A stretch of 64,000 nt of DNA from Isosphaeraceae bacterium (GTDB lineage Bacteria > Planctomycetota > Planctomycetia > Isosphaerales > Isosphaeraceae): positions 1 through 64,000 of the forward strand of contig JANXSX010000194.1 in the NCBI GenBank assembly GCA_025356475.1. The letters run 5' to 3'. The notes beneath the pieces were generated by a model. The model worked only from the letters and a program-made list of their open reading frames with translations, made no database searches and was not told the DNA's origin. Made by a program: the position numbers and the translations under genes. Shown here one piece after another: positions 57,825-61,171 of this stretch. Position 1 is the first letter of the stretch; every line of letters starts with the position of its first letter.

Positions 57825-58862
57825 TCACGTCGAGACGTTGGGGTGGTCAACTGGCGAAAGGCTCACCGCATGAGGATGAGTCGCATAAAGCGATCTCAAT
57901 GCCTCAACATCATGGTCATACTGCTGATGCAGCCAATTCCGGTACTCCTGAGCGGCAATCGGCTCGGGGAGCCCGTTGGCCACGGAACCGCCCAGCAAGT
58001 GAGCGCAGAGGATGCCGCTCATCAGGGCTCGGAGCGTGCCGTGTGACGAAGAGGGGTCAAGCACCGCCGCTGCATCACCCAACAAGAAATATCCAGGTCC
58101 AGCGCACTCGCGATGAATCCGCCATGCCAGGTCGAGTCCCCCATCCTTATGAGATGGAGCAGGTTCAGAGGCGTTTGCAACCCGCAGGGTCGCCCAGGCC
58201 GAACGCCGCTCGCCGAGCGGAGCGGTCCAGTCCCACCCTTGAGGGTGGGCTTGAAACAACGGTTGGTCATCGAGTTCGCTAAGATCATCGTCCGTATTCC
58301 AGCCAAATCGGACATGGAGTTGCGGAGAGTCCCGTTGTTCAACGAGCTTGAGTCCCTTCGCCAGCCACGAGCGACGGCCCGTGGCGTCGGCGGTCCAGCG
58401 CGCGAAGATCTCCGAACCGTTCACGACCACCCCTACAACCCGGCCATTCTGCTGGAGCAGAGCCGTTGGTGACGCGGGCCGGAGCCACTCGACCCCGGCG
58501 TCTTCCGCAGCCTTCTCAAGGAGTCGGTGGAACCGCTGACGATCGGCCTGAAAACCGAGCCAGGGCCCTCGCTCATCCTGCCCATACGCTTCAAACCGGC
58601 GAGGACCGTCCCACTCGACCCAGACGCCGCGATGTCGGTGAAATCCTTCCGCAAGCACAGCCTGGCGAACGCCAAGCTGGTCCAGGATCGGCTCGATCCC
58701 CGGGTGCAGGGTCTCACCCGGGGCAACGCGAGGAGCGGGGCTTCCCTCAATAATCAGCACACGCAGCCCCGCCGACCGCGCACGGATCGCGGCGGAACAC
58801 CCGGCGGGGCCTGCACCTAGGATCAAGAGATCAACTGTCGGGGAGGTCATCGGATCGGTCAC
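57825..58862 (-). CDS. FAD-dependent oxidoreductase (LodB-like)
   Basis: A 345-residue flavoprotein of the halogenase/geranylgeranyl-reductase superfamily. The N-terminal dinucleotide motif GAGPAGCSAA lies at residues 16-25, with VAPGETLHPG (about 46) and the second FAD motif YFLLGDAAAVLDP (about 260). LodB-type proteins help form the cysteine tryptophylquinone of LodA; that role here is inferred only from the neighbouring gene. GTG 58862 overlaps the preceding TGA by four bases; ATG 58850 is an alternative. Transcription is coupled to the large protein before it. Confidence 0.85.
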   Translation of the reverse strand: MTDPMTSPTVDLLILGAGPAGCSAAIRARSAGLRVLIIEGSPAPRVAPGETLHPGIEPILDQLGVRQAVLAEGFHRHRGVWVEWDGPRRFEAYGQDERGPWLGFQADRQRFHRLLEKAAEDAGVEWLRPASPTALLQQNGRVVGVVVNGSEIFARWTADATGRRSWLAKGLKLVEQRDSPQLHVRFGWNTDDDLSELDDQPLFQAHPQGWDWTAPLGERRSAWATLRVANASEPAPSHKDGGLDLAWRIHRECAGPGYFLLGDAAAVLDPSSSHGTLRALMSGILCAHLLGGSVANGLPEPIAAQEYRNWLHQQYDHDVEALRSLYATHPHAVSLSPVDHPNVST

Positions 58863-61171
58863 TCCGCAGCGACCGCAGTCCAGTGACTGTCGATCTCGCG
58901 GCGACGCAGGGCCTGAGTGTCCTTAGCCGAGACGAAGAAGAAATTTTGACGTTGGAGCGGGAGCAAACGAAATCGCGGGCCTCGGGGTGAATCTACGGTA
59001 GGGTGATCGCCCAGGCCAGTGAAGCAGGCTTCGATACGATAGACCCGTCCGGTCAGGGTCCGAGCCGACTGGGTTTGGGCCTGGTGCAGTTCCAGATCTC
59101 CTGCCGAGACGGGTCGGAAAGATAGGATTAGCCATTCCGTACGGGCGGGCCATACATTCATCCCGCCCGAGAGCACAAAGTGGGCCCGGGCAACAGCCAG
59201 CATTCGCCGCTCGTATTCCTCTGCCGTAATCTGCGATGTCAGACGAAGGCTGAACCGGTTCTCAACCGCATTGATCACATAATCAACGTTGAGAAAACTC
59301 GCCATTTCGACAAATGAAGTGCCATTGACCTGTACGATTTTAGGACCAGGCACACCGTCCCAGGGAAGCGCCCCCGTCTGGCCGATTTCCTCGTCGGTCA
59401 GCGGGGCGACCGTGCCTCGAAGCTGCTTATTACCGGTGTGCAGTGACATCGTGCGGTAGACGTCGGGTGCGACAGCCGGCCAGAATGTGCTCAACGCGGC
59501 GCAGAGCTTCGAGTCCTCTGGGAACGGGCTCCCCAGCGCGTAGGCTGCCATGTGTGTCGTGCCTGTCGGGGTCGTGTCTGTGGAGACATCCCAGCCGGGA
59601 GCGAAGATGCCTGCTGCGTCGTCGGGGAGGGTGGAAGCCCGAACCACGTCGCTCCTCGGCAAACCCAGTGCGGCGGTCCCCGGAACGGCTTTTCCCATCC
59701 CGATCACCGCAGGCATGGAGTCGTCGTTATCAAATGGGTTGTCAATCAGTTGCAAGTTCGCAGGCAAGCGAACTTCGCTGAGGGGTTTGGGGGCAACCCC
59801 CCAAAGCTGATCGCCTCGGAAACTCCCAGGAATTTGGGGCGATTGGCTCCAACGACTGAGCTCAAACTGTCCGGTCGAAGGGAAGAAATCGGGGCCGCTC
59901 AGGAGCACGTAGGCAGAACGGGGTTCCGCAGAAATCTCGTGTCGACCTGCAAGTTGAGGGACCTTCACCGTCAGCCAGCCCTCCCCCGTGAAGTCGAGAT
60001 AGTGCAACGCCTCGTAGCCGCCCGCGTTGACCTGATCATTGACATCGGGGAAGTCATTGAGATCGATCTCGATCTGTTGCTTATCTACGATTTTGATTTT
60101 GGTTCGAGCATGAACATAGGCTGGGTAAGGACTTCCTTTGTCGTCGGGTCGAGGTTCAGGCGGTTTAGGCTCATAGGAAGCGAATCGACTCTTCCCACCG
60201 ATGGGCACCTGGTAGGTCAGGGCCGTTCCATTGATGATCGCGGGCTTGACCAGGCTCTCCTGCACCACGGGAACGACCGACAGTCGGCCGAATTCGGTCC
60301 GCTCCTTCAACTCGGCGAGCTGTGCGTCCACGATCACGAAGGGAAATCCGGTCGGCTGGGTGCCATCCACCGATGTTCGGACTCGTTTCAGCTTCTCATT
60401 GAAGAACTTGGTCGAGCTATTAAACGTAAGGTCGAGGCCTGCGTCTGAGAGACATTCGGTCCCTTCGAACAGCTTATGGACCGGGACCAAAAACTTGCGA
60501 GTGGTCTCTTCCTTGTCGGGTTGTCCCAGCCGCATCACTCGAGCCTCGGCTCCGGTTACCGTTGCTGCGAGCCAGACTGTGAATCGCGCTGGGATGACCC
60601 GGAAACCGTTCCCATCGTCGACAGGCCAGAAGCCACGGACCTCGGGAAGATACAAGGCCCGCGAGGTGCCAACCCGCGTGATTCCCGTGCGTGAGAACAC
60701 GAGATCAGCGTGGGCTCGGTCGGGGGTATCAGGAGCCGGTCGATACTCCGTCGCATAAACGACGATTGAAAGATGGGCCGTTCCGGCCGCCTTGAGAACC
60801 TTTGCCAGATCGCGGGGTGCGACCCCGAAGACGTAATTCTCGATCGTCTCAAGTTCGGCAAGCGTGGGGAACCCTCCCAGAACTCTGCCATTGGCGCCAC
60901 GCACCACGTTAGGGCTCGCGAACGCGTGATAGAGCAGGCTTTGAGCAGGATTGTAGGCAGTGATTCCTTTTTGACCTTTTGTGTCGAAGTCTTCAAATCC
61001 AACAAGCGTACGATCAATTTGTCCCAGATTGTCCGTAAGGGCTGTCTTTAGTTTTGTGGTCGTTGTTTGCTGGATATCGAGCGCATCATGACTCACTGCC
61101 TTGAACAGGTCTCGCCAACCGAGTGGCCCAAGACGATCGCAAATCGCCTTCACATCTTCGATCAAGGACAT
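58859..61171 (-). CDS. Large protein of unknown function, possibly LodA-like quinoprotein
   Basis: A 770-residue protein without signal peptide or membrane helix. Its best-conserved looking region is the C-terminal half: APGWD (527), PEDSKLCAALSTFWPAVAPD (551-570) and TGALPWDGVPGP (599-610), reminiscent of LodA/GoxA-type amino-acid oxidases that carry cysteine tryptophylquinone. It has only four cysteines (11, 240, 557, 716), and none stands about 65 residues before Trp564, the LodA spacing. The N-terminus (AYNPAQSLLYHAFASP) is not LodA-like. It is coupled by GTGA to a LodB-like flavoprotein. ATG 61171 has a GGAGA site. Confidence 0.6.
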   Translation of the reverse strand: MSLIEDVKAICDRLGPLGWRDLFKAVSHDALDIQQTTTTKLKTALTDNLGQIDRTLVGFEDFDTKGQKGITAYNPAQSLLYHAFASPNVVRGANGRVLGGFPTLAELETIENYVFGVAPRDLAKVLKAAGTAHLSIVVYATEYRPAPDTPDRAHADLVFSRTGITRVGTSRALYLPEVRGFWPVDDGNGFRVIPARFTVWLAATVTGAEARVMRLGQPDKEETTRKFLVPVHKLFEGTECLSDAGLDLTFNSSTKFFNEKLKRVRTSVDGTQPTGFPFVIVDAQLAELKERTEFGRLSVVPVVQESLVKPAIINGTALTYQVPIGGKSRFASYEPKPPEPRPDDKGSPYPAYVHARTKIKIVDKQQIEIDLNDFPDVNDQVNAGGYEALHYLDFTGEGWLTVKVPQLAGRHEISAEPRSAYVLLSGPDFFPSTGQFELSRWSQSPQIPGSFRGDQLWGVAPKPLSEVRLPANLQLIDNPFDNDDSMPAVIGMGKAVPGTAALGLPRSDVVRASTLPDDAAGIFAPGWDVSTDTTPTGTTHMAAYALGSPFPEDSKLCAALSTFWPAVAPDVYRTMSLHTGNKQLRGTVAPLTDEEIGQTGALPWDGVPGPKIVQVNGTSFVEMASFLNVDYVINAVENRFSLRLTSQITAEEYERRMLAVARAHFVLSGGMNVWPARTEWLILSFRPVSAGDLELHQAQTQSARTLTGRVYRIEACFTGLGDHPTVDSPRGPRFRLLPLQRQNFFFVSAKDTQALRRREIDSHWTAVAAE

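Follow-up and report, generated by a model that had tools for sequence, protein, structure and literature searches.

An overlapping gene pair of an Isosphaeraceae bacterium encodes a remote LodA/GoxA homologue and its presumed flavin-dependent maturase

The gene pair and its features

The window, which is the whole stretch of DNA analysed here (64,000 nucleotides from an Isosphaeraceae bacterium), contains two overlapping genes on the reverse strand. The upstream gene encodes a large protein of 770 residues with an ATG start at position 61171; a TTG located 51 bases upstream of this ATG is an alternative start, from which the protein would contain 787 residues. The downstream gene encodes a 345-residue protein that carries a GxGPAG FAD site and has an internal ATG at 58850 as another possible start. 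The two genes are joined by a GTGA overlap, in which the GTG of the FAD gene (58862) shares bases with the TGA of the large gene (context ...GCG GAG TGA CCG...). The large protein contains both FWPAVAPD and LPWDGVPGP and exactly four cysteines (residues 11, 240, 557 and 716). The open reading frames and the sequence thus confirm the preliminary description of the locus as regards the 770-residue protein with these two motifs, its overlap with the FAD gene and its cysteine count. The features of the pair are as follows (CTQ, cysteine tryptophylquinone).

58859–61171, minus strand: LodA/GoxA-like protein of 770 residues, presumed CTQ-dependent amine or amino-acid oxidase (open reading frame, conservation, model, structural and profile comparison)
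57825–58862, minus strand: FAD-dependent monooxygenase, presumed tryptophylquinone maturase, with a GTGA overlap with the upstream gene (family, profile and tree evidence)
60773–61171, minus strand: N-terminal helical domain, residues 1–133, absent from LodA/GoxA and matching no known fold (model and fold searches)
60644–60688, minus strand: residues 162–176, TGITRVGTS..., matching the LodA N-terminal motif GIARVGNS (profile score 31.3)
60452–60454, minus strand: Cys240, invariant (84 of 84 sequences)
59870–60004, minus strand: residues 390–434, matching LodA W-x-DDTSDG...AWVVxxPPDFAP (profile score 39.4)
59588–59605, minus strand: residues 523–528, FAPGWD, counterpart of LodA FxPGxE (alignment and profile comparison)
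59462–59536, minus strand: residues 546–570, LGSPFPEDSKLCAALSTFWPAVAPD, presumed cofactor segment, counterpart of LodA PWQxDxxxC...WWPAxxPxxV (alignment and profile comparison)
59513–59515, minus strand: Asp553, counterpart of LodA D512, GoxA D678 and QhpC D33 (alignment; PMC7876137)
59501–59503, minus strand: Cys557, presumed thioether partner (alignment and profile comparison)
59480–59482, minus strand: Trp564, presumed quinone-forming tryptophan (alignment and profile comparison)

Residues 1–133 are extra relative to LodA and GoxA. They are modeled as a helical domain with a confident fold (pLDDT 95), and fold searches returned no match to any known structure. A haem-less cytochrome c, suspected from an IxPGxPxxSLLY motif, gained no support for this domain: no CxxCH, Pfam cytochrome or fold match was found. 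Two relatives of the large protein (L066 and L082) have Tat-type N-termini, which suggests that some members may be exported in a folded state.

Relation of the large protein to LodA and GoxA

LodA/LodB and GoxA/GoxB are a CTQ-dependent lysine-epsilon-oxidase and a glycine oxidase, respectively, each with a flavin maturase. The large protein matches no family in Pfam or NCBIfam, with no model passing its cut-off, and is annotated as hypothetical in the one annotated record looked at. The Pfam LodA_N and LodA_C and the NCBIfam LodA models gave no match above their curated cut-offs, and one of 64 members reaches LodA, with an E value of 0.057. Sequence searches of the PDB, with the single sequence and with a profile, gave no relevant match to the large protein, and a search of BFVD returned nothing. 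The best BLASTP E value against 14 planctomycete LodA-like proteins was 6e-4. A 2015 survey defined LodA-like proteins by BLASTP to GoxA/LodA with an E value of 1e-10 or better (PMC4417212), a level that the large protein does not reach, the comparison set here being the 14 planctomycete proteins and not the queries of the survey.

A structure model of the large protein was built from 64 relatives. Its mean pLDDT is 90.2, with values below 50 at residues 565–569. The preliminary description had hinged on a LodA-like fold, and the 14 best solved structures found by the structural aligner are all GoxA or LodA, with Z scores of 6.3–8.5 against 2.8 for the next row. Model residues 134–725 align with essentially the whole of GoxA/LodA, although a Z score of 8.5 is middling, and GoxA/LodA were not among the top rows of Foldseek alone.

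Comparison of the family profile with that of the 14 planctomycete LodA-like proteins gave three collinear matches, at residues 162–176 (score 31.3), 390–434 (39.4) and 502–574 (27.8), each of which is weak alone (E 0.001–0.03). In a control with sixty shuffled profiles, the best score had a mean of 20.2 and a maximum of 30.4, and the third score was at most 20.1. All three real matches are more than two standard deviations above the mean shuffled best score, and the top match exceeds it by six.

Fold, collinear motifs and partner gene are each modest evidence alone; in combination, they identify the large protein as very distantly homologous to LodA/GoxA across residues ~134–725. The N-terminal half had earlier been thought unrelated to LodA, which holds for residues 1–133 but not from residue ~134 onward, where the structural and profile matches begin. 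Of the traits of the LodA/GoxA superfamily, the fold, the alignment of the Cys and Trp, an Asp four residues before the Cys, a Trp-Pro at the cofactor site and an adjacent LodB-like gene, placed directly downstream as in the lod and gox operons (PMC4417212), are all found. The large protein differs from LodA/GoxA in that it lies below the detection level of Pfam, NCBIfam and BLASTP, has SPFPEDxKLC in place of PWQxDxxxC and FAPGWD in place of FxPGxE, has a Cys-Trp spacing fixed at seven, and contains the additional N-terminal domain of ~133 residues.

The cofactor site and the flavoprotein

The third profile match (residues 502–574) aligns D553, C557 and W564 with the Asp, Cys and Trp of LodA. 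Cys557 is located seven residues ahead of Trp564, within a D-x3-C-x6-W motif. These three residues with their exact spacing, and W604-D605, are invariant in 83 of the 83 relatives covering the region, which is far beyond chance, although the count is biased because the scan pattern for most loci included the Cys. Eight relatives were found without the Cys pattern (L004–L007 by plain similarity; L013, L015, L059 and L069 via a different pattern), and the D/C/W segment is kept in all seven of these that have an intact open reading frame in the alignment. In the eighth (L007), the reading frame is split by a frameshift, and the same segment is visible in the second frame.

The cofactor residues of LodA, C516 and W581, are 65 residues apart. 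An equivalent cysteine had been reported missing from the large protein, and indeed there is no cysteine between residues 240 and 557 and hence none ~65 residues ahead of W564; the presumed cofactor cysteine is nevertheless present, as Cys557. The Cys-to-Trp spacing is 5, 15, 16 or 18 in ordinary LodA-like proteins, so that LodA, with 65, stands at one extreme and does not set a family rule. Four of these LodA-like proteins (L095, L096, L101 and L105) have five residues from Cys to Trp (C-x4-W), far tighter than LodA. In quinohemoprotein amine dehydrogenase (QHNDH), CTQ is formed from Cys37 and Trp43 of QhpC, with Asp33 (D33-x3-C37-x5-W43), and tryptophylquinone enzymes share a strictly conserved Asp close to the cofactor (PMC7876137). 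Within one fold, the CTQ Cys-Trp spacing would range from 5 to 65 with D-x3-C fixed, which bears on how the maturases find their tryptophan. Weak matches to the QHNDH gamma family (E 0.06–0.17), covering the Cys-Trp stretch in L020, were at chance level and were set aside; no match to this family was above cut-off.

Cys557, one crosslink residue proposed in the preliminary description, is the best-supported of the options. Cys240 is also invariant, and no LodA counterpart of it was identified. It could take part in a different modification, in which the FAD protein turns Trp564 into a product other than CTQ, such as hydroxytryptophan, a halogenated tryptophan or a crosslink elsewhere, for example to Cys240. 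We consider this quite unlikely, since C557 aligns with the CTQ cysteine of LodA, and known CTQ sites have in common a D-x3-C with a Trp a short way downstream (PMC7876137).

The FAD protein bears on the same question. Its top Pfam match is Trp_halogenase, and the best matches of its profile to solved structures are halogenases, with CmlS second, a resemblance that would suit halogenation of Trp564. However, QhpG and GoxB are likewise most similar to CmlS in structure (PMC7876137), and the FAD gene, unlike those of CmlS-type halogenases, is tied to a LodA-like protein and not to a biosynthetic cluster. The profile matches the QhpG structure (PDB code 7ctq) at 7e-24, and all 47 tested FAD proteins match QhpG, LodB, GoxB and CmlS. 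The preliminary description had proposed searching both proteins against LodA/LodB family models; such models detected the FAD protein but not the large one. In NCBIfam, the FAD protein matches QhpG best (2.4e-30), followed by GoxB (1.2e-23) and LodB (1.1e-17), all below the equivalog cut-offs (105.8 of 240 bits, 83.8 of 400 and 64.2 of 400, respectively). In a tree with long branches, the FAD proteins group in a single clade that excludes the flavoproteins beside planctomycete LodA-like genes.

Distribution, gene neighborhoods and presumed function

A scan of public genomes found the large protein at no fewer than 151 loci in many phyla; 80 of these were retained, and 84 loci were fetched in all. 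The loci occur in Nitrospirota, Cyanobacteriota, Pseudomonadota, Actinomycetota, Bacillota, Acidobacteriota, Verrucomicrobiota, Bacteroidota, Planctomycetota, Gemmatimonadota and one archaeal metagenome-assembled genome. The archaeal copy (L044) comes from a contig assigned to a Nitrososphaerales bin and could be contamination; the 2015 survey had no LodA from archaea (PMC4417212). The large protein is present in only 3 of 392 genomes sampled from Planctomycetota, a patchy occurrence that is consistent with horizontal spread. Three plasmids bear relatives, and a search of viral contigs found none.

With few exceptions, the 84 fetched loci have a homologue of the FAD gene next to the large-protein gene, which answers the concern that the two genes might not be linked elsewhere. 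The FAD gene aside, no neighbor cluster occurs in more than ten fetched loci. Across 67 loci, the distance matrices of the large and FAD proteins have a correlation of 0.88, against at most 0.24 after permutation; as proximity alone favors co-inheritance, this value reflects the stability of the pair and not contact. Together with the LodA/GoxA fold and the relation of the partner to QhpG, GoxB and LodB, the tight linkage upholds the lodAB/goxAB-like arrangement originally proposed.

In two cases (L004 and L005), the large-protein gene is not accompanied by a maturase gene, as might be expected if the large protein were a LodA relative with a structural or binding role and no protein-derived cofactor, and the FAD protein acted on a small molecule. 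The L004 copy belongs to the genome of the window (L124:6256–8577, on another contig), is 43% identical, and keeps every cofactor residue. This Isosphaeraceae genome, with its two copies of the large protein, has a single such FAD gene, which could serve both. Moreover, D, C and W and their spacing are absolutely conserved across many phyla, linkage is near-universal, and the large and FAD proteins have diverged in step. A protein lacking any quinone, which had been left as an option, is thus not supported, and we regard it as very improbable.

We consider it likely that the large protein carries CTQ and belongs to a deep, hitherto undescribed branch of the LodA/GoxA superfamily, with its maturase encoded by the overlapping FAD gene; we infer the cofactor, chemistry, substrate and acceptor. 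The pair is probably a CTQ-dependent amine or amino-acid oxidase (C557–W564) with a dedicated flavin maturase. Translational coupling would bring the two proteins together; reduced flavin would then activate O2 and hydroxylate Trp564. A thioether would form between Trp564 and Cys557, seven residues upstream, and oxidation of the crosslinked Trp564 would give the o-quinone. A primary amine or amino acid would form a Schiff base with the quinone, with Asp553 as the base, and the reduced cofactor would be re-oxidized, most likely by O2, yielding an aldehyde or keto acid, ammonia and H2O2.

H2O2 is released by LodA and GoxA, both of them amino-acid oxidases. A DyP-type peroxidase gene is located close upstream of the pair in three loci (L010, L046 and L070), and an animal-type haem peroxidase gene in two others (L018 and L019); these adjoining genes, small in number, fit H2O2 production. 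Further peroxidases are found near the pair, of the DyP type in L005 and L059 and of the animal haem type in L083 and L084.

Alternatively, CTQ might be formed in a dehydrogenase with an acceptor other than O2, as in QHNDH, with little H2O2 released. The best NCBIfam score of the FAD protein is to QhpG, the QHNDH maturase, and most neighborhoods are without a peroxidase. The cofactor motif resembles QhpC in having D-x3-C followed by Trp at short spacing. QhpC is a small peptide that the radical-SAM enzyme QhpD crosslinks and that joins cytochrome c subunits in the assembled protein, whereas here a single 770-residue polypeptide has the LodA fold. No small gamma subunit, QhpD or cytochrome c gene is conserved nearby, nor any other carrier gene, the FAD gene being the sole conserved neighbor. 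The matching folds, LodA and GoxA, are those of oxidases, and the close upstream peroxidase genes occur in several phyla. A dehydrogenase is therefore unlikely.

The chances are about even that the pair represents a third, hitherto undescribed CTQ class with a dedicated maturase, next to LodA/GoxA proper and QHNDH. This class, found in nitrifiers, cyanobacteria, pseudomonads and planctomycetes, would have its own N-terminal domain of unrecognized fold and would act on a new substrate or use a new electron acceptor. Protein-derived quinones are uncommon, with only a few known systems; if the assignment is correct, it adds a large family, for which Pfam and NCBIfam have no model. It would also place enzymes of this kind in Nitrospira and further groups that yielded none in the 2015 survey (PMC4417212).

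In five Pseudomonas loci (L053, L054, L055, L062 and L063), the pair has sarcosine oxidase/glyA on one side and a threonine-aldolase-like gene on the other (sarcosine oxidase identified by Pfam, the other two by eye), a gene order that hints at glycine-related substrates. A family of ~340–410 residues is encoded ~55–210 bases from the start of the large gene in Nitrospira and others (L011–L016, L056, L060, L067 and L069). It had no Pfam match in the one member scanned and is a possible third component. In Burkholderia and Cupriavidus (L006:2989–5759 and L007:2930–5700), divergent genes beside the pair resemble, by eye, a two-subunit molybdenum hydroxylase.
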